Assembly: GCA_035285325.1 (NCBI GenBank)
Contig: JAYKJB010000115.1
Location: 1-37,009, forward strand
Reading direction: 5' to 3'
DNA: 37,009 nt
Origin: Candidatus Sericytochromatia bacterium
Lineage (GTDB): Bacteria; Cyanobacteriota; Sericytochromatia; S15B-MN24; JAQBPE01
This document shows, one piece after another, positions 7,483 to 31,607 of the stretch; the stretch's first letter is position 1, and the number at the start of each line of letters is the position of its first letter. The notes below the pieces were generated by a model. The model worked only from the letters and a program-made list of their open reading frames with translations. It was not told where the DNA came from and ran no database searches. Both the position numbers and the translations under genes were made by a program.

Positions 7483-8025
7483 TCAGCGCCGCGCGTACCA
7501 CTTGGCGTAGAGCGTCTTGCGGTGAGGGCCATAGAGGCCTTGAAGCTGGCGCTCCAGACGATAGTAATGGGCCGGGTCGGCCGGGCGGCCTTTGAACGGA
7601 CTGATGACCACCACACCGTGGGCGCCCGCCTCGTGCATGCGCCACCACATCGTGGCCTGCTCTTGAGGGGTGGCCAGATGGAGGGCATAGGAGGCCACGA
7701 TCCAATCGGCGGCCGGCAGCGGCTCCCCGAAGCAGCCTACACTCGCCGAACAGCCGGTTTCTCGGACGTAGCGAGCCACCATCTCGGCCGACCGGTCCAC
7801 GCCCACGCAGCGGAGTTCCGGCTGGTGGGCCAGTAACTTGGTGACGAGCCCATCGCCGCAGCCGAGGTCCAGCACGCACCCGCTCAGCGGCGGGGCCAGT
7901 TCCTTCAGGATCCGGGCGATGCCGTCGGCATGCGGGTTGTCGTAGGCGTCCGCGCAGGCGCGATAATAGGCTTCCGGCGCGAGGTCGGTGCCGAGATAGG
8001 GATGCGGGCGCCCGTCGTCGGCCAC
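7483..8025 (-). CDS. Class I SAM-dependent methyltransferase
   Basis: 180 residues starting with GTG at 8025; no in-frame ATG exists before the motif-I region. Motif I is VLDLGCGDG at residues 51-59, followed at the expected distance by the acidic end of strand 2 (CVGVDRSAEM, 73-82). The post-I and motif-II regions are also recognisable (ADWIVASYALHLATPQEQ). This is the small methyltransferase-11/12/25-type Rossmann fold without an added substrate domain. The substrate is unknown; such proteins modify metabolites, lipids, proteins or RNA. It is the last gene of the minus-strand cluster and starts 9 bases after the stop of the 92-residue gene. It may work with the SNF2 helicase genes or simply share their transcript. 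Confidence 0.85.
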   Translation of the reverse strand: MADDGRPHPYLGTDLAPEAYYRACADAYDNPHADGIARILKELAPPLSGCVLDLGCGDGLVTKLLAHQPELRCVGVDRSAEMVARYVRETGCSASVGCFGEPLPAADWIVASYALHLATPQEQATMWWRMHEAGAHGVVVISPFKGRPADPAHYYRLERQLQGLYGPHRKTLYAKWYARR

Positions 8026-8034
8026 GTGCTCGCG

Positions 8035-8313
8035 TCAGCGGGTGGTGAGCAGCATGCCGAGCGTGGCGATCGCAGTGGCCAGGCTGGCCCAGGCGGGCCT
8101 GGCGGCGCCGGCCGTCCAGACCGGCCTGGGGCGCCAGCGGAACTCGTCTTCCAGAAACGGCAGGGCCTTGCGCAGCATCTCCAGCGGAATCAGAGCCTGG
8201 CGACGCTGGTGGTAGGCCATCCAGGATTCCAGAAAGGCCACCTCGAGAAAGATGCTCTTGGGGTTGGCTTCGGCCAGCAGGCCCAGCAGGCGTTCAGTCT
8301 CGTTCGATTTCAT
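8035..8313 (-). CDS. Small protein with hydrophobic C-terminal tail, SNF2 operon
   Basis: 92 residues, not recognised. Its ATG overlaps the stop codon of the 774-residue gene (ATGA), so translation is probably coupled. The N-terminal two thirds are helical and polar (MKSNETERLLGLLAEANPKS; QRRQALIPLEMLRKALPFLE). The last 20 residues or so (AWASLATAIATLGMLLTTR) form one hydrophobic stretch of transmembrane length, suggesting a tail-anchored protein with a cytoplasmic head. There is no signal peptide or cysteine motif. Coupling to a zinc-finger protein and a SNF2 helicase suggests it could tether that complex to the membrane, which is inference. The stretch is fairly rich in Ala and Thr, so membrane insertion is not certain. 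Confidence 0.75.
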   Translation of the reverse strand: MKSNETERLLGLLAEANPKSIFLEVAFLESWMAYHQRRQALIPLEMLRKALPFLEDEFRWRPRPVWTAGAARPAWASLATAIATLGMLLTTR

Positions 8314-10634
8314 GCGTGCTTCCTCTTCAACGGCAGCATCTGCCGCAGCGAGTCCAGGTGGCCGCAGCGGAAAGCCGCGACGATCTCGGCCGGCTCAGCG
8401 GCGTGTGCCTGGCGGTAGGTGACCATTCCCCAGGTGCCCCACTTCGACCAGTGGGCGACCACGAAGGCGCCGGTCACGGAGACCTCCCAGGTGCGATTGC
8501 CGCGGCGCAGTTCCGGGAAGCGGGCCAGGATCGGCTGCAGGCGTGGGTCGGAGGCCACCGTCGGCGCCAGGCTCTCGCAGGCCGGGCAAGGGGCCAGCGG
8601 GCCGTGGATGCAGCGCTGACAGGTGGGCACCCCACACGTGCCACAGGGCGTCAGATCGTGCCCCGCGCTCGGGTGTTCACAGCTGGGGCAGGCGTGCAGC
8701 GTGCCGAGATCCACCCCTGTCGGGCGGGACGCTTCGGCGGGGGCCGCCGCGACAGGCGTCACCGCGCCCACCACCGTCTTGAACAGGGCCGCCAGCGTCT
8801 GATCCTCCCGGGCTTCGTCGCTGACGCGGCTCGGGCTGAAGGCAATCGTCTGGCGCAAGGCCGCCGGCGCAGGCGCATCGAAGCGCGGGTCGGGCGTCTC
8901 GTCGATGTGGGGAGGCGCTTCGAGGGTCCCGGTCGACTTGACCTCGCCAGCAGGCAGCGACACGATCGCCGGTTCGGCGCCGACAGGCTGCGGGAGCGCC
9001 TGGGCGATCGCCGGTTCGGCGCCGACAGGCTGCGGGAGCACCTGGGCGATCGCCGGTTCGACGCCGACAGGCTGCGGGAGCGCCCGGGCGATCGCCGGTT
9101 CGGCGCCGGTGGGCTGCGGGAGCGCCTGGGCGATCGCCGGTTCGGCGCCGGCAGGCTGCGGGAGCGCCTGGGCGATCGCCGGTTCGACGCCGGTGGGCTG
9201 CGGGAGCGCCTGGGCGATCGCCGGTTCGGCCATCGGGGGCGCGGCGACTTCCGCGGCGGCGGGGGGGACGGAGAGCGGCACAGGATGCCCCGCGCAGCTC
9301 GTCTCGCCGCAGTCCGTGCAGATGCTGATGCAGCGGGGACACACGGCCCGCTCGTAGGGACCGCTCGGCCTGGCCAGTTCGAGGCTGACCGTGGCATCGC
9401 AAGCGGCACAATGGGTCAGGCATCCGCTGCAGCGTGTCACCCCGCTGGCCGCGCAGGTTCCCCAGCTTCCTTCCGCGTGGACGACCTCCTCGCAGCCGGG
9501 ACAGGCCTGCAGGCAGGTCTGGCAGATCCAACCGCCCTCGGGCGTGGTACGCCCGCCTTGCAGGGGTTCGTTGCAGCGGGAGCAGGGCGGCAGGTGCAGT
9601 TGCTTGCTGACCGGCCAGTATTGCAGCTGCAGCGTGACGGACTCCCCCTCGGCCGTGAGGACATCTGCGTCGTAGGTCAGCACGTCATACGAGGCGTGAC
9701 AGATCGACACCAGGTCGGTCACCGCCGTCAGTTCGTGGCGCTCCCGTTCGTGGGCGAGCTTCTGCTCACAGGCCTGGCTGATGGCCTGCAAGGCGCCGTC
9801 ACGCTGCTCCCGGGCGTGTGCCAGTTGCGCCTGCTGGCTGTTCAGGTCTTGCTGGCAGCGCGCCAGCACGTCAGGGGTGCGGGCTTCGGCCAGTTTTCGG
9901 CGGGTCTGTTCGCAACGCTCCTGCAGACTCGTTTCGCGTTGCAGCACCTGGCCCATCTGCTGTTCGTAGTACTGGTTGGTGCGGCTTTCCGTCTCCGCGA
10001 GCATGGCCCCCAGTTCGCCTTCCAGTTCCGCGCCGCGGTGGTCGGTGTCCAGGTCGATCTGGTTCAGGGAGCGTCCGAGCAGGGCCCGCACCGTGGCTTC
10101 CGTCGGGAAGACCTCCGGCCGGATCATCAGCGTGGGCGTCTCGTAAAGGAACGGCTCCAGCGCGGTGACGCGCTCGTTGAGCGCGATGTCCCACAGGTGA
10201 TGATGCATCACTTCCCGACGCGCGCTGAGGGCTGGCGCATCGAAGGTGACGCGATGGCTCAAGCCAAGGGCCGTGCGGTTCTCCACCCGGAGCAAACGCG
10301 CCTTGGTGACCTGCCAGCCGGATGGCATCGCCTGGGTCAGCGTCCGGGCGGGATGGGCGATCGGCTGGCTGACCAGGTAGCGGTAGCTCACGGCCACCTC
10401 GGCTGTGAGGTCGTCCAGGATGGCGCGCCACGAGGGGCTGGTGGTCGTCAGCGCTACCGGCGCCTGCTCGCGATCCCCGGCCGGCAGCTCGTCGGCGAAG
10501 GTGACCCGCAGGGACGCCCCCTCTTTCGGAGTGATCCGATACGAGTCGGCAGGGCCCTGCTCCAGCGGGGCGACGGTGGCGCCACGCTTGCGGTAGTAAT
10601 CCAGGGCGAAGGTGCGGATGGACGAGTCGGTCAT
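8310..10634 (-). CDS. Zinc-finger, coiled-coil, tandem-repeat partner of the SNF2 helicase
   Basis: 774 residues with GAGGAA just upstream of the ATG. Apparent order: an N-terminal alpha/beta domain (about 1-200); a coiled coil (about 205-300); a short beta region; a zinc array with seven CxxC pairs (351/354, 371/374, 378/381, 402/405, 409/412, 432/435, 439/442); a linker of near-identical 14-residue repeats (unit EPAIAQALPQPxGA); a disordered stretch; a second zinc cluster (start HACPSCEHPSAGHDLTPCG) near 645-690; and a C-terminal tryptophan-bearing domain (HWSKWGTWGMV). I know no protein of this architecture. The cysteine clusters resemble zinc ribbons or treble clefs of nucleic-acid or protein-binding adaptors. 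Position and coupled translation suggest it acts with the helicase. The pairing recalls the adjacent SNF2-helicase genes yqhH and yqhG of Bacillus, though homology to YqhG is unproven. Confidence 0.85.
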   Translation of the reverse strand: MTDSSIRTFALDYYRKRGATVAPLEQGPADSYRITPKEGASLRVTFADELPAGDREQAPVALTTTSPSWRAILDDLTAEVAVSYRYLVSQPIAHPARTLTQAMPSGWQVTKARLLRVENRTALGLSHRVTFDAPALSARREVMHHHLWDIALNERVTALEPFLYETPTLMIRPEVFPTEATVRALLGRSLNQIDLDTDHRGAELEGELGAMLAETESRTNQYYEQQMGQVLQRETSLQERCEQTRRKLAEARTPDVLARCQQDLNSQQAQLAHAREQRDGALQAISQACEQKLAHERERHELTAVTDLVSICHASYDVLTYDADVLTAEGESVTLQLQYWPVSKQLHLPPCSRCNEPLQGGRTTPEGGWICQTCLQACPGCEEVVHAEGSWGTCAASGVTRCSGCLTHCAACDATVSLELARPSGPYERAVCPRCISICTDCGETSCAGHPVPLSVPPAAAEVAAPPMAEPAIAQALPQPTGVEPAIAQALPQPAGAEPAIAQALPQPTGAEPAIARALPQPVGVEPAIAQVLPQPVGAEPAIAQALPQPVGAEPAIVSLPAGEVKSTGTLEAPPHIDETPDPRFDAPAPAALRQTIAFSPSRVSDEAREDQTLAALFKTVVGAVTPVAAAPAEASRPTGVDLGTLHACPSCEHPSAGHDLTPCGTCGVPTCQRCIHGPLAPCPACESLAPTVASDPRLQPILARFPELRRGNRTWEVSVTGAFVVAHWSKWGTWGMVTYRQAHAAEPAEIVAAFRCGHLDSLRQMLPLKRKHA
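8964..9232 (-). repeat. 42-bp in-frame minisatellite (six full units plus a partial seventh)
   Basis: The unit beginning GATCGCCGGTTCGGCGCCGA repeats at 8964, 9006, 9048, 9090, 9132 and 9174, with a partial copy at 9216. Copies differ at only a few positions (GACAG/GGTGG/GGCAG, TCGGC/TCGAC, GCGCC/GCACC). The period is exactly 14 codons, so the frame is kept and copy-number change would only lengthen or shorten the linker. Every junction after the first unit carries a GCGATCGC octamer. Confidence 0.97.
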
Positions 10635-10662
10635 GGACGTTCCTCAGGGCAGGGAGTGGCGC

Positions 10663-10788
10663 TCACGCGGGGCGGACCGGCACGCTCGGACGCGGCGGCG
10701 CGGGAACAAAGAACCAGATGCCGTCGCGGTAGACGTAGGTGCCGGATGGCGTGGAGGCGGGAGTCGACACGGAAGGTCCTGCTTTCAT
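10663..10788 (-). CDS. 41-residue micro-ORF translationally coupled to the SNF2 helicase
   Basis: The ATG (10788-10786) overlaps the helicase stop codon (TGA, 10787-10785) as ATGA, the same coupling used two genes later. The frame encodes 41 residues and stops at 10663, 28 bases before the 774-residue gene. The product has a Ser/Thr/Pro-rich start, an aromatic core (GTYVYRDGIWFFVPAPP) and a proline-rich end. The YxYRDGxWxF pattern looks like a small beta-hairpin, as in WG- or SH3-like repeats, but I cannot assign a family. If it were not coding, the helicase and the zinc-finger gene would be separated by an unexplained 150-base gap. The exact stop/start overlap and the spacing support a real gene. 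Confidence 0.65.
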   Translation of the reverse strand: MKAGPSVSTPASTPSGTYVYRDGIWFFVPAPPRPSVPVRPA

Positions 10789-12557
10789 GACGCGCGCGCG
10801 GCCTCTTCGATGGCGGAGAGGTCGAGCAGGGAGAGGGTCTGGGCGTCGAAGGCTTTGATCTGGTCGGCGGCCTGTTTGGCAAGCGCCATTTGCTCGCCGA
10901 GGGCCTCGAACTGGTAGCGCAGGTCCCGCGGTTCCCGCGCCTTGGCGATCACCTCGATCACGGCCCGTTCGAAGGTTTCCACCCCGCGCAACTGGCTGAG
11001 GATCAGGTCGGTTTCGCCGACGGCGTGCGTGAAGAGCTGAATTTTCTGACTCAGCAGCTCGAGAATGTACTCTTCCACGGTGTCGCGCACGGCCATGTTC
11101 ACGACCACCACATCGCGTTTCTGGCCAATGCGGTGCACCCGGCCGATGCGCTGCTCCACGCGCATCGGGTTCCACGGCAGGTCGTAGTTCACCAGCGCGT
11201 GACAGAATTGCAGGTTGACGCCTTCAGAGCCGGCATCCGTGCAGACCAGGATGCGACGGCCTGGGGCGCGGAAGGCCTCCACAGCGGCATCCTTCTCGCT
11301 TTGCCCCATCAGGCCCGAGAACAGCACCACCTCGTGGCCGGCCGCCACCAGCTGGGCTTGCAGGAAGCGTTGGGTCTCGTAGAAGCTGGCGAAGACGATC
11401 GCCTTGTCGTCGATCTCCCGCAGCACCCGCAGCAGGGCCTGGCATTTGGCCGGCGTGCGCACGCTCTGCGCCAGCTGGCCGATGTTCAGCAGCGCCACCC
11501 CATCGGCGGCATCGGCACATTCAGCCAGCATGCCACGCACGGCCTGAGCCAGGGCGGCCGGACTGCTCGCCATCATGCGCGACAAGCGGATGTAGGTCAG
11601 GGTTTTGAGGCCGCGCTCATCGGCATTCGTGCGACTGTGCGCGCCTCGGACGAAGTCCACGACGGCCTGATGCAGGGCCAGCTCATCGGGGCTGCCGTCG
11701 AGCAGGACCGTCTCGACCCGCCGGTTGGCAAAGGTGATGCCCACGTCCGCGCGCCGATGGCGCACCATGATCCGCCCGAGCAGATCGCCCAGCTTGCCGG
11801 CGTTCTTCAACACACGGCCCTGGCGATCCTCCACGAAGGTGCTGCGGAAGTGGGCCGGAGTGCCCAGCAGGCCGCCCTGGACCAGGTCCGCCAGATTGTA
11901 GAGCTCGAACAGGCTGTTCTGCACCGGCGTGGCCGTCAGCAACAGCATGTACCGGCTGTGCAGGGCCTTCACGAACTTGTAGCTCTGCGTGGCGGCGTTC
12001 TTGAGGCGATGGGCCTCGTCCACCACGACCAGATCCCAGTGTCTGCCCAGCACCAGTTCGGCGTTGGCCGGATGTTTGGCCGTGTCGAGACTGGCAATCA
12101 GCAAGTCATGCTGGTCGAAGCCCCGAAAGCCGTCCTCGTCCTGCGCGGAGCGGGTATCGGCCACCGTGAATTCCTCGCCGAACTTGTAGCGCATCTCGCC
12201 CCGCCACTGCGTGGTGAGTGGCGCCGGCGTGAGGATCAGCACGCGTCGCACCAGGCCGCGGGCCAGGTATTCCTTCAGGATCAATCCGGCTTCGATGGTC
12301 TTGCCCAGACCCACCTCGTCCGCCAGGATCGCCCGCGTGTGCATCTTGTTGATGGCCGTCATGACCGCATTGACCTGATGGGGCAGGATCTGGATCTGCT
12401 GGCGGTCGAGCTGGCCGACGGCCAGCAAGGCGTCGATCTGGCCCTGCAAGCTCATGCGGTGCGCTTTCACCGTCAGACGTTGCCAGTCTGGATGGCAGAA
12501 GTCCTCGGCCAAGAGCCGAGTCACCCCTTCTCCGACGTTGCGGTAGACCTTTTTCAT
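10785..12557 (-). CDS. SNF2-family DEAH ATPase/helicase
   Basis: 590 residues from the ATG at 12557, with AAAGG six bases upstream; a GTG at 12608 would add 17 residues of poor quality. Superfamily-2 motifs in order: DEVGLGKTIEAG (motif I, 80-91), LILTPAPLTTQW (Ia), DEAH (II, 180-183), LTATPVQN (III, 207-214), IVFASFYETQ (IV region), GSEGVNLQ (V, 443-450) and QRIGRVHRIGQ (VI, 469-479). Motif VI with HRIGQ is diagnostic of SNF2 rather than RNA helicases. Beyond the two RecA-like lobes there is only a short helical tail and no RapA tudor-like domain or chromodomain, so partner proteins probably supply targeting. Bacterial stand-alone SNF2 ATPases remodel RNA polymerase (RapA) or serve in defence systems such as DISARM (DrmD). 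It heads a five-gene coupled operon. Confidence 0.93.
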   Translation of the reverse strand: MKKVYRNVGEGVTRLLAEDFCHPDWQRLTVKAHRMSLQGQIDALLAVGQLDRQQIQILPHQVNAVMTAINKMHTRAILADEVGLGKTIEAGLILKEYLARGLVRRVLILTPAPLTTQWRGEMRYKFGEEFTVADTRSAQDEDGFRGFDQHDLLIASLDTAKHPANAELVLGRHWDLVVVDEAHRLKNAATQSYKFVKALHSRYMLLLTATPVQNSLFELYNLADLVQGGLLGTPAHFRSTFVEDRQGRVLKNAGKLGDLLGRIMVRHRRADVGITFANRRVETVLLDGSPDELALHQAVVDFVRGAHSRTNADERGLKTLTYIRLSRMMASSPAALAQAVRGMLAECADAADGVALLNIGQLAQSVRTPAKCQALLRVLREIDDKAIVFASFYETQRFLQAQLVAAGHEVVLFSGLMGQSEKDAAVEAFRAPGRRILVCTDAGSEGVNLQFCHALVNYDLPWNPMRVEQRIGRVHRIGQKRDVVVVNMAVRDTVEEYILELLSQKIQLFTHAVGETDLILSQLRGVETFERAVIEVIAKAREPRDLRYQFEALGEQMALAKQAADQIKAFDAQTLSLLDLSAIEEAARAS

Positions 12558-12723: not shown

Positions 12724-12773
12724 AAAAAACCTGAAAGACCCGCGTCACCAGGGTGGCGCAGGTCTTTCAGGTT
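12724..12773 (-). terminator. Strong rho-independent terminator of the Pro/Gly-rich protein gene
   Basis: A 13-bp perfect outer stem (AACCTGAAAGACC at 12728-12740 with GGTCTTTCAGGTT at 12761-12773) continues, after one mismatch, into an 8-bp inner stem around loop AGG. On the minus strand it is followed by six T (the A-run 12724-12729). It lies 41 bases after the stop of the gene at 12814. Confidence 0.9.
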
Positions 12774-12813: not shown

Positions 12814-13662
12814 TCAGCCCAGGCCCACGCGGGCCCCACCGAAGAGGGCGGAGAACAGCCCCCCGATGGCGTTGCCGATTCCGCTGAAGACCGAACCGAT
12901 GCCGCGCACCACGGCACCCGCGGCACTCAGCAAACCACTGCCGATCGCCCCGATGCCGCGCCCCAGGAAGCCGAACACGTTGACGGCTCCCTGAGCCAGG
13001 GCGCTGAGGCCTTGACCGAGCCAGCGGAAGGGCGTGGCGAGGACCTCAAAGACACCGGACAATCCGCCCCGAAAGCCGACGCCGGCACCGCCGCCGCCCA
13101 CCCCGCCGACCAGGGCGCGGCCCGCGAGCAGGGCGCCCACGATCAGGGTGCCGTTGACCAGCCAGCGGCCGACCACTTCCCCGCTGCGGCGTGGCGCATA
13201 GGGATTGGGCCGCCAGTAGGGCCGGCGCAGCGTCGGGTCGAGGGGGTGACGCAGGAACTGCCCCACCTCGAAGCTCCGTTCCTTGATGCCGAACCAGAGG
13301 TCCTGAAAGAATTGGCCACCGCCGGGTTGCGGGCCCGGGTAGGGGTAGCCGGGCTGACTGGGATAGGTCGGATGGGTGGGCCGGCTGGGGTAGCTCGGCA
13401 GGGTCGGGTAGGCGGGGGCTCCCGAAAAGGGCGGGCGGGTCGGAAAGGTCGGCTGCGGGGGTGCTGAAACGGGCGGGAAATTCGGGTAGACCCCGCTCGG
13501 CGGCATGGGCGTGACCGGATTCGGCCAGGCCGGCGGCGGAGGCGTGCCAGGCCAAGACGGCGCTGGGGCCACGCTCGCGGGCGGTTGCTGGGGGTCGAGG
13601 ATCCGGCGAACGCCAGCATAGGGGCCCACACGATGGACGCCGCTGATGTTCATCTCACTCAT
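12814..13662 (-). CDS. Proline-rich protein with hydrophobic glycine-rich C-terminus
   Basis: 282 residues with an excellent AGGAGGA site 8 bases before the ATG. Residues 20-125 or so are a low-complexity Pro/Tyr/Ser/Thr region of short repeats (YPTLPSYPSRPTHPTYPS), surely disordered. A short charged domain follows (FFQDLWFGIKERSFEVGQFL; RHPLDPTLRRPYWRPNPYAP). The last 120 residues alternate Gly/Ala with Leu/Val/Ile/Phe in glycine-zipper style (GRGIGAIGSGLLSAAGAVVR; GSVFSGIGNAIGGLF), able to form membrane-embedded or pore-like helices. There is no N-terminal signal peptide, so export would need another route. I do not recognise the family. It is a single-gene unit with strong translation and termination signals, which suggests high expression. 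A membrane-active or surface-structural role is inference. Confidence 0.8.
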   Translation of the reverse strand: MSEMNISGVHRVGPYAGVRRILDPQQPPASVAPAPSWPGTPPPPAWPNPVTPMPPSGVYPNFPPVSAPPQPTFPTRPPFSGAPAYPTLPSYPSRPTHPTYPSQPGYPYPGPQPGGGQFFQDLWFGIKERSFEVGQFLRHPLDPTLRRPYWRPNPYAPRRSGEVVGRWLVNGTLIVGALLAGRALVGGVGGGGAGVGFRGGLSGVFEVLATPFRWLGQGLSALAQGAVNVFGFLGRGIGAIGSGLLSAAGAVVRGIGSVFSGIGNAIGGLFSALFGGARVGLG

Positions 13663-29488: not shown

Positions 29489-30103
29489 TCAGCGACCCTT
29501 GTTCGAGAGTTCAGGGTTGTTGACCTCGCGCGCCAGGATGATCGCGTCGGCGATCTCGCGCAACGGCTTGCGGCTGTTCATCGACAGCTTCTGGATGCGG
29601 CGGAAGGCTTCCGCTTCCGTGATGCCGTAGGTGTCGATCAGGATGCCCTTGGCCTTCTCGACCAGCTTGCGCGTTTCCAGCACGTCCTTGAGGTTCGCGA
29701 TCTCGTCGCTGAGCGCCTGCATCTCTTCCGCCCGGCTCATGGCCACCTCGATCGTGGGCATGATGTCCGCCTCCTTGATCGGCTTGACCAGGTAGGCGAA
29801 CACGCCCAGTTCCACGGCCTGCTCGACCAGCTCGGGCGCGGAGTAAGCCGTCACCATGATCACCGGGATGCGGCGCTTGCCCGGCTCGTTGATGGCCTTG
29901 ACGGCCTCCAGCCCGTCCATGTGGGGCATCTTCACGTCCATGACGATCAGGTCCGGCTCCAGCTTGGCCGCCAGTTCCACCGCCACGCGGCCATCCACGG
30001 CCTCGCCCACCACCTCGTGACCGCGCTCTTCCAGCATTTCTTTCATGTCCAGCCGGATGATCGACTCGTCATCGGCGATCAGGATGCGCAGGCGTTTGCT
30101 CAT
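29489..30103 (-). CDS. ANTAR-domain response regulator (PdtaR/AmiR-NasR type)
   Basis: 204 residues with AAGGAG upstream of the ATG at 30103. The receiver domain covers about 1-122: acidic pocket DDE (11-13), phospho-acceptor Asp56 in IVMDVKMP, switch Thr in VTAY and conserved Lys in YLVKP. A coiled segment leads to an ANTAR domain (about 135-195): LKDVLETRKLVEKAKGILID, EAEAFRRIQKLSMNSRKPLR and EIADAII, with the aromatic/alanine pattern of the family. ANTAR proteins bind paired hexaloop hairpins in nascent RNA and prevent termination after phosphorylation-driven dimerisation. The gene immediately upstream encodes a HisKA_2 kinase, matching the PdtaS-PdtaR and EutW-EutV pairs. It has its own -10 box inside the end of the kinase gene. 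I found no hexaloop pair nearby, so targets are presumably elsewhere. Confidence 0.94.
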   Translation of the reverse strand: MSKRLRILIADDESIIRLDMKEMLEERGHEVVGEAVDGRVAVELAAKLEPDLIVMDVKMPHMDGLEAVKAINEPGKRRIPVIMVTAYSAPELVEQAVELGVFAYLVKPIKEADIMPTIEVAMSRAEEMQALSDEIANLKDVLETRKLVEKAKGILIDTYGITEAEAFRRIQKLSMNSRKPLREIADAIILAREVNNPELSNKGR

Positions 30104-30130
30104 GGGGCGGTCTCCTTCAACGGGCTCTTC

Positions 30131-30161
30131 ATTATAGGCTGCTTCATGTTTCCCGGATCAA
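30131..30161 (-). promoter_or_regulatory. Internal promoter of the ANTAR regulator gene
   Basis: On the minus strand TTGATC (30161-30156), a 19-base spacer and a perfect TATAAT (30136-30131) lead into the regulator 28 bases later. The -35 and part of the spacer lie in the last codons of the kinase gene, so the regulator can be made independently of the kinase. Confidence 0.65.
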
Positions 30162-31607
30162 GGAGCCGGGGGCGGGATGCGGCACCAGCAGGCTGATGCG
30201 CGTCCCGGCCGGGTGTTCGATCGTGAGCTGGCCTTGCAGGTCGTCCCGCACCAGGGTCTTGATGATCTGCCAGCCCAGGTTGCCGTCCCGTTCGGGCGTG
30301 AAGTCGGCCGGCATGCCGACGCCATCGTCCTCGATCGTGAACAGCACACCCTCGTCCAGTTCCTGCAGGCCCACCCGCACGTGGCCCTGCGGGCGCCCGC
30401 TGAATGCGTGCTTGATGGTGTTTTGCAGCAGTTCGTTGACCACCAGGGCGGTGGAGGTGGCCTGGGCCGAGGGCAGGGTGACCGGGGCCGGGCAGTCCAG
30501 ACTGGTCGTGATGCGCTGCGAAGGGTCCACGAGTCCCTGCAGGGTCGAGGAAATCAGGTTCTGTACCAGGTCCTTGACGTCGACCACGCCCACGTCGTCG
30601 TGGCTCAGGTACTCGTGCACCAGGGCGATGCTGGCGATGCGGGCGATGCTTTCCTGCAGGATCGCCTTGACCTCTTCGTTGCGGCTGCGACGGGACTGCA
30701 GGCGCAGCAGACCCGCCACGGTCTGAAGGTTGTTCTTCACGCGGTGGTGGACCTCCTTGACCAGCGTGCTCTTCACCACGATCTCGCGGTCCTTCTGCTT
30801 GAGTTCGGTGACGTCGTGCAGCACCTTGACGTGGTCCACGAAGCCGTCCGATGGTTGCACCGGAATGGTGCGCACGGCCATGGTGAGGTTCTGGGTCACC
30901 AGTTCGTTCTCGCTGAAGACCGGGTTGGTGTGGACCGGCCGGTACTCGTGCTGGGTGACGAAGGTCTGGTGCCAGTCGAGCCCTTCGAGCTGTTCCGGCA
31001 CGCCGAGGCGCCGGGCCAGGTTCAGGGCCACGGCGCTGGCGTGCATGATCGTGCCGGCGTCGTTGAGCAGCAGCAGCGCGTCACCAGGCTGGATGGGCGG
31101 CAGCGCGAGCGAGCTCACGCGCGCCTTTTCGATCAGGGTTCGGACCAGGCGGGTGATCGCCGTGCGGTAGAGCTGGCGCTTGCTTTCCGCGTGCTTGAGT
31201 TCCTCGTACAGGTTGCGCTCGACCACGATCAGGGCGGCCACGCCGTCGACGCCGACCAGGGGGTAGGCCACCTGGTTCATGGGTTGCCCGTTCACCACCT
31301 TGCCGATCGCCCCATCGGCGAGTTCCCCGGAGTGGAAGGCCTGCCAGATGGCGGACGAATGCTCCGGGGTGAAGATGTGACCAACCTGCGGGCGGCGGTA
31401 GAAGCTCTGGCGGACGGTCGGCTTGGCTTCGGCAATGGTGACGAAGCGTCCGCCCTCCAGCGGCGCGTGGATCAGCAGGTCGGCGGGAATGAAGTCCGCC
31501 AGGAACGGCAGTTGCCGGGCAATGTTCTGGATCCAGAACCGGTCGGGTTCCTGGGGAATGTGTTCCTGAAAGGGCAGGGACCAGGCCATCCCGTTGGTCT
31601 GGATCAT
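30144..31607 (-). CDS. PdtaS-like soluble sensor histidine kinase (HisKA_2)
   Basis: 487 residues from the ATG at 31607; the frame continues upstream but only across the end of tyrS, where it has no support. The N-terminal region (about 15-165) matches the GAF-like sensor of PdtaS-type kinases (FTPEHSSAIWQAFHSGELAD, VAYPLVGVDGVAALIVVERN). A PAS domain follows (about 172-270: ALLLLNDAGTIMHASAVALN ... VKVLHDVTELKQKDREI). The phospho-acceptor segment is VKEVHHRVKNNLQTVAGLLR, with His287 as likely phosphate site and the HHRVKNNLQ signature of HisKA_2. The ATPase domain shows VVNELLQNTIKHAF (N box) and EDDGVGMP (G1). There is no transmembrane helix, so it senses a cytoplasmic signal. It lies between tyrS and its cognate ANTAR regulator on the same strand. 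Confidence 0.93.
   Translation of the reverse strand: MIQTNGMAWSLPFQEHIPQEPDRFWIQNIARQLPFLADFIPADLLIHAPLEGGRFVTIAEAKPTVRQSFYRRPQVGHIFTPEHSSAIWQAFHSGELADGAIGKVVNGQPMNQVAYPLVGVDGVAALIVVERNLYEELKHAESKRQLYRTAITRLVRTLIEKARVSSLALPPIQPGDALLLLNDAGTIMHASAVALNLARRLGVPEQLEGLDWHQTFVTQHEYRPVHTNPVFSENELVTQNLTMAVRTIPVQPSDGFVDHVKVLHDVTELKQKDREIVVKSTLVKEVHHRVKNNLQTVAGLLRLQSRRSRNEEVKAILQESIARIASIALVHEYLSHDDVGVVDVKDLVQNLISSTLQGLVDPSQRITTSLDCPAPVTLPSAQATSTALVVNELLQNTIKHAFSGRPQGHVRVGLQELDEGVLFTIEDDGVGMPADFTPERDGNLGWQIIKTLVRDDLQGQLTIEHPAGTRISLLVPHPAPGSLIRET

Follow-up and report, generated by a model that had tools for sequence, protein, structure and literature searches.

A YqhH-type SNF2 ATPase and its zinc-cluster partner in a Sericytochromatia genome: a conserved gene pair with a probable relation to RapA

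In Escherichia coli, the SNF2 protein RapA (HepA) removes or backtracks RNA polymerase (PMC12448304), and residue D744 of its Spacer contacts the zinc-binding domain of the polymerase beta' subunit (PMC8501970). In Bacillus there is a YqhH/YqhG pair, formed by a SNF2 ATPase and a partner gene directly downstream that often overlaps it. Purified YqhH from Bacillus thuringiensis is a DNA-dependent ATPase, and loss of yqhH lowers survival after UV (PMC10054049). In B. subtilis, loss of hepA (yqhH) cuts the MMS survival of PcrA-depleted cells (PMC7385302). Papers on YqhH found in our literature search treat the ATPase alone, and no paper on the role of the YqhG partner was found. The Pfam family of YqhG, PF11079, is titled protein of unknown function.

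A pair of this type was found in the window, the stretch of 37,009 nucleotides analysed here, which forms contig 115 in the 3.8-Mb draft genome (G000) of a Candidatus Sericytochromatia bacterium. It lies within five minus-strand genes, whose order, coordinates, overlaps and gaps in the initial annotation were all confirmed in the sequence. Genes overlap by ATGA at 10788 and at 8313, a 28-base gap precedes the gene of the 774-residue protein, and a gap of 9 bases lies at 8025. The features are as follows:

12724..12772, minus strand: inverted repeat ACCTGAAAGACC...GGTCTTTCAGGT, then T6 (direct reading of the sequence)
10785..12557, minus strand: SNF2 (YqhH-type) ATPase, 590 aa, with DEVGLGKT, DEAH and QRIGR motifs intact
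10663..10788, minus strand: 41-aa peptide with a YRDGIWF motif, a family-level extra; 44-aa homologue in G001 only
8310..10634, minus strand: 774-aa partner, YqhG-like/RapA-C-like by profiles and predicted model, with zinc clusters
8035..8313, minus strand: 92-aa protein, kept in the sister genus only (48%)
7483..8025, minus strand: class I SAM methyltransferase, 180 aa, adjoining the pair and not conserved with it

The inverted repeat and its T6 run are the likely terminator of the upstream 282-aa gene, so the transcription unit probably starts at the SNF2 gene. The repeat is not in the hairpin scan output, its loop being longer than 8 bases. The upstream gene (12814-13662) encodes a protein rich in proline and glycine that matches nothing in Pfam or NCBIfam. 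The ATG at 12557 (MKKVY...) was taken as the SNF2 start, because homologues share M[KR][KR]VY or a similar beginning. A longer GTG reading, to 12608, was rejected, as the extension is not conserved. The 41-residue gene is real, judging by a 44-residue version in the sister genus with YRDG[IV]W[FY] at the equivalent place, and this motif occurs once in the window genome. The membrane tail suggested for the 92-residue protein appears marginal, with a best 19-residue hydropathy of 1.27 (1.31 in its homologue). Both small proteins are family-level extras. Together with the methyltransferase gene, their genes lie outside the conserved unit, which consists of the SNF2 and 774-residue pair only. The view of the five genes as one set was therefore abandoned, since outside the family only this pair is conserved.

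The window SNF2 has no Pfam domain besides SNF2/helicase, with ~79 residues ahead of motif I, and according to Pfam it lacks the RNA polymerase-binding domain that RapA has at its N-terminus. It scored 226.1 bits with the NCBIfam RapA equivalog PRK04914, whose cut-off is 576. Among the matches listed, its closest relatives are YqhH-type proteins, with 37-46% identity over about 500 aa. In a FastTree phylogeny the window SNF2 falls among partner-bearing SNF2s (a group of 87 rows, 74 with partner, some on long branches), separate from the other SNF2s of the phylum (support 93). An alignment of the SNF2 family was scanned against 84,980 species genomes and the best 80 loci, all from other named genomes, were examined. 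A homologous partner gene is next downstream in 74 of the 80. Partner profiles were seeded from 22 loci, and the remaining 52 partner loci are independent finds. Overlap between the two genes is usual, being of exactly 4 bases at 22 of the 80 loci; in the window family the 41-aa gene sits between them. Most of these loci are from Bacillota, and others are from Actinomycetota, Chloroflexota, Acidobacteriota, Pseudomonadota, Planctomycetota, cyanobacteria, Latescibacterota, Eisenbacteria, KSB3 and Riflebacteria. These results bear out the description of a SNF2 without accessory domains tightly coupled to a large protein, and also the comparison with yqhH/yqhG. The locus is not an undescribed system, however, as YqhH-type pairs are found in many phyla and are not confined to this lineage. 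The pair is real and conserved, and belongs to a kind that is known but has hardly been studied.

Homologues of the 774-residue protein itself occur in eight genomes related to this one at order level and in one further genome of the class; searches of other families gave none. Five of these genomes also carry a close SNF2 homologue (53-74%) upstream of the zinc protein gene, and in two of the five the two genes are separated by one or two small lipoprotein-like genes. The pair is kept across most of an order and is not patchy. The protein can be divided into the following parts:

10110..10634, minus strand: residues 1-175, conserved alpha/beta N-terminal domain that aligns with YqhG and the RapA Spacer/CTD
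9738..10100, minus strand: residues 179-299, long helical hairpin (coiled coil) in the model, pLDDT mostly 93-98
9309..9584, minus strand: residues 351-442, first zinc cluster with seven CxxC (sequence, alignment)
8963..9230, minus strand: in-frame 42-bp minisatellite with a 14-aa unit, a lineage-specific linker (repeat analysis)
8577..8690, minus strand: residues 649-686, second zinc cluster with four CxxC (sequence, alignment)

Thus the seven CxxC pairs, the second zinc cluster and the coiled coil of the initial annotation were all recovered, the last as a hairpin in the model. The second-cluster cysteines are invariant in 8 of 8 aligned homologues. The linker of variable length is the minisatellite, which has 6.4 copies of 42 bp (93% match); none of the aligned relatives has it, and it is apparently recent in the window genome. 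The 774-residue protein has no meaningful direct match in Pfam, NCBIfam or the PDB sequences; the PDB sequence matches were rejected as zinc-finger and coiled-coil look-alikes. An AlphaFold model of residues 1-450 has a pLDDT of 84.8, above 90 in the hairpin. A PDB structure search with it gave no match below E 0.1, probably because of the long coiled coil and the low-confidence zinc region.

Profile comparison connects this protein to YqhG. The partner in Bacilli is YqhG (PF11079, E 3.4e-127 for the Bacillus partner). The profile of the 774-aa family matches YqhG with an E-value of 1.2e-7, against 0.4 for a reversed YqhG decoy, and it also matches clostridial partners (2.3e-10), partners of proteobacterial type (2.7e-13) and those of Chloroflexota, KSB3 and Planctomycetota (1.5e-32). 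The AlphaFold model of YqhG (pLDDT 93.4) and the window model share the order of their secondary-structure elements: helix, strands, helix, long strand, strand, helix, helical hairpin and long strand. YqhG differs in its size of about 264 aa, its short hairpin and its lack of zinc clusters. By these profiles and predicted folds, the 774-residue protein reads as a remote homologue of YqhG whose coiled coil is longer and to which zinc clusters have been added. At the PF11079 gathering score neither this protein nor the window genome gave a match, and none above the cut-off of RapA_C (PF12137) was found in either. The protein is therefore not classed as RapA_C or as YqhG proper, and the evidence for its homology to YqhG and RapA comes from profile-profile and fold comparisons.

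The relation to RapA is seen both in structure and in sequence. In a Foldseek search of the PDB with the YqhG model, E. coli RapA was the sole match under E 0.001, in four entries (E 6e-6 to 2e-5, probability 1.00). At 0.32 the TM-scores were low, and the Foldseek output does not include the aligned residues; such scores are consistent with domains that may be placed differently relative to each other. In sequence, a profile of 85 partners matched seven RapA C-terminal regions with an E-value of 6e-6 and a score of 49.9 (hhalign E-values given here are pairwise and not database-corrected). The aligned stretch covers partner columns 9-223 and RapA residues about 713-925 (E. coli numbering, counted from a fragment start at residue 590), and D744 falls inside it. 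Twenty column-shuffled controls scored at most 19.7, and among 57 unrelated proteins used as negative controls the top scores were 39.0 and 34.0, both from proteins rich in zinc ribbons and both below 49.9. The result depends on the profiles, as single RapA sequences score only 15-34, and the match is clear with seven RapA and 85 partners, but not with only four RapA.

Fused genes provide a further connection. SNF2s with a C-terminally fused YqhG/RapA-C-like domain occur in Chloroflexota and cyanobacteria; loci with such a fusion are L152:5196-8714, L153:3711-7190, L049, L053 and L038. These forms match the partners with E 1.2e-8 and RapA with E 9.8e-7, and addition of the fused forms to the partner profile gives E 5.3e-7 against the RapA C-terminal region. 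The fused gene of L153 overlaps a downstream gene that reads like a Hsp70/actin-fold ATPase. In Mycobacterium asiaticum, a 2028-aa protein (L150:6506-12589; matches at E 2.3e-10 and 7.6e-15) unites a SNF2 core, a YqhG-like domain and two zinc clusters. It was missed by the census at E<1e-3 and recognised by reading the frame. The order of its parts equals that of the window pair, from which it differs in being a single polypeptide with further C-terminal regions. The fold, profile and fusion evidence makes the pair resemble a RapA cut in two, or RapA a fused pair. Both have the SNF2 core and the homologous C-terminal region. E. coli RapA, however, is one chain instead of two genes and has the RapA N-terminal domain, and the window partner has zinc clusters and a long coiled coil in addition. 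True RapA, with PF12137 above cut-off, is present in three other genomes of the class (L155, L156 and L157). Two of these also carry the pair, so RapA and the split pair can coexist.

The window genome harbors a second pair on contig 63 (L063:9418-12437). As in the window, the genes are coupled by overlap (TGATG) and the partner has the N-terminal domain, a coiled coil and a zinc cluster; it matches residues 1-444 of the 774-residue protein (hhalign E 1.1e-20). Unlike in the window, the partner has 419 aa, the SNF2 is about 40% identical to the window one and a gene for an AAA+ ATPase lies upstream. This AAA+ gene precedes the second pair in the window genome (L063:7796-12440) and in the sister genus (L064:5680-10184). 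A similar AAA+-like frame stands ahead of a SNF2 without partner in Litorilinea (L077:4429-8668).

A split RapA is the best reading of the pair, given the match of the YqhG model to RapA and the deep partner and RapA profiles. We consider it fairly probable that the core of the locus is a two-subunit RapA-like DNA motor, made of a SNF2 translocase and a detached RapA-C-like partner and directed to RNA polymerase or a roadblock. The SNF2 protein would be an ATP-driven double-stranded-DNA translocase, and the N-terminal domain and helical hairpin of the partner would be the counterpart of the RapA Spacer/CTD, present as a separate subunit. The two proteins would bind each other. The partner would bring the motor to its target. 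The likeliest target is a stalled RNA polymerase, or one retained on DNA, or else a comparable roadblock, and ATP-driven translocation would then backtrack or remove it. The function that we infer is the clearing of RNA polymerase or nucleoproteins; no direct evidence of RNA polymerase binding by any YqhG-like protein was found. In line with the targeting or regulatory role proposed for it, the large protein plausibly supplies the domains missing from the SNF2, and its zinc clusters probably add binding surfaces. The link between PF11079 and the RapA C-terminal region suggests a role for the family that can be tested, would account for the lack of accessory domains in YqhH, and brings RapA-like machinery into phyla without curated RapA.

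The pair may instead be a DNA-repair or recombination motor for UV or alkylation damage, whose partner would target damaged DNA or repair proteins and whose likeness to RapA would be ancestry only. We judge this rather unlikely. It is favored by the UV phenotype of B. thuringiensis without yqhH (PMC10054049), by the worse MMS survival of PcrA-depleted B. subtilis without hepA (PMC7385302) and by the frequent nucleic acid binding of zinc clusters. However, these phenotypes are mild and also compatible with RNA polymerase clearance at lesions, and the neighbours of the pair in the window include no repair genes.

The association of helicase and zinc-array gene, by which the initial annotation was to be judged, holds in part. 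SNF2 genes without partner occur at a few related loci (L077 and L140), and the Bacilli partner is without zinc clusters. In addition, a sister family (G004, G005 and G007) keeps the zinc protein, and the SNF2 preceding it has lost GKT, DEAH and QRIGR. The genes are:

L059:859-2202, L060:280-1743 and L061:1-519: degenerate SNF2 genes upstream of the zinc protein

The degenerate SNF2s have 447-487 residues; both complete ones begin with [MV]KRVY and the third ends at the contig edge. Their similarity to each other (27-48%) and their uninterrupted reading frames mark them as genes that the family shares and maintains, rather than assembly errors. A search of these genomes for a close active SNF2 gave none. 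The loss of the motifs shows that ATP hydrolysis is not always needed, a point against the RapA-like motor, and the pair could be a complex with a structural or regulatory role, where ATP hydrolysis comes second and the SNF2 fold is a scaffold for the zinc protein. The motif-less, yet recognisable and open SNF2s kept in place speak for it, but we find it improbable, as GKT, DEAH and QRIGR are intact in the window SNF2 and in all aligned homologues outside the sister family. The dead-motor family is nevertheless a natural experiment on the role of the partner without ATP. Returning to the RapA-like motor, a wider proposal, which we hold tentatively and with slightly less than even confidence, is that YqhG-like proteins are detached RapA C-terminal domains and that the pairs form an unrecognised two-subunit RNA polymerase remodeller in many phyla. 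In the window lineage the partner has zinc clusters, and in this proposal the dead motor with its persisting partner would point to an ATP-independent role. What is new here is the link to RapA, the spread of the pair over many phyla, the fusion and the family with a dead motor.

An anti-phage defence system of the DISARM or a similar kind is very improbable: the SNF2 matches the DrmD, BrxHI and HmaA profiles and a methyltransferase adjoins, but DrmD, although among the closest curated profiles to the SNF2 core, scored 298.7 against a curated cut-off of 950 bits, no DISARM partner genes adjoin, and PADLOC and neighbour scans revealed no further defence genes close by. The methyltransferase lacks conservation, and the retention of the pair across most of its order and its housekeeping surroundings (rmlD, a Bax1-I protein, a transporter, MarR, hrpB and similar) also speak against defence. 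Elsewhere in the window (29489-31607), an ANTAR response regulator adjoins a PdtaS-type histidine kinase (GAF_PdtaS, HisKA_2), forming a PdtaS/PdtaR-like pair.
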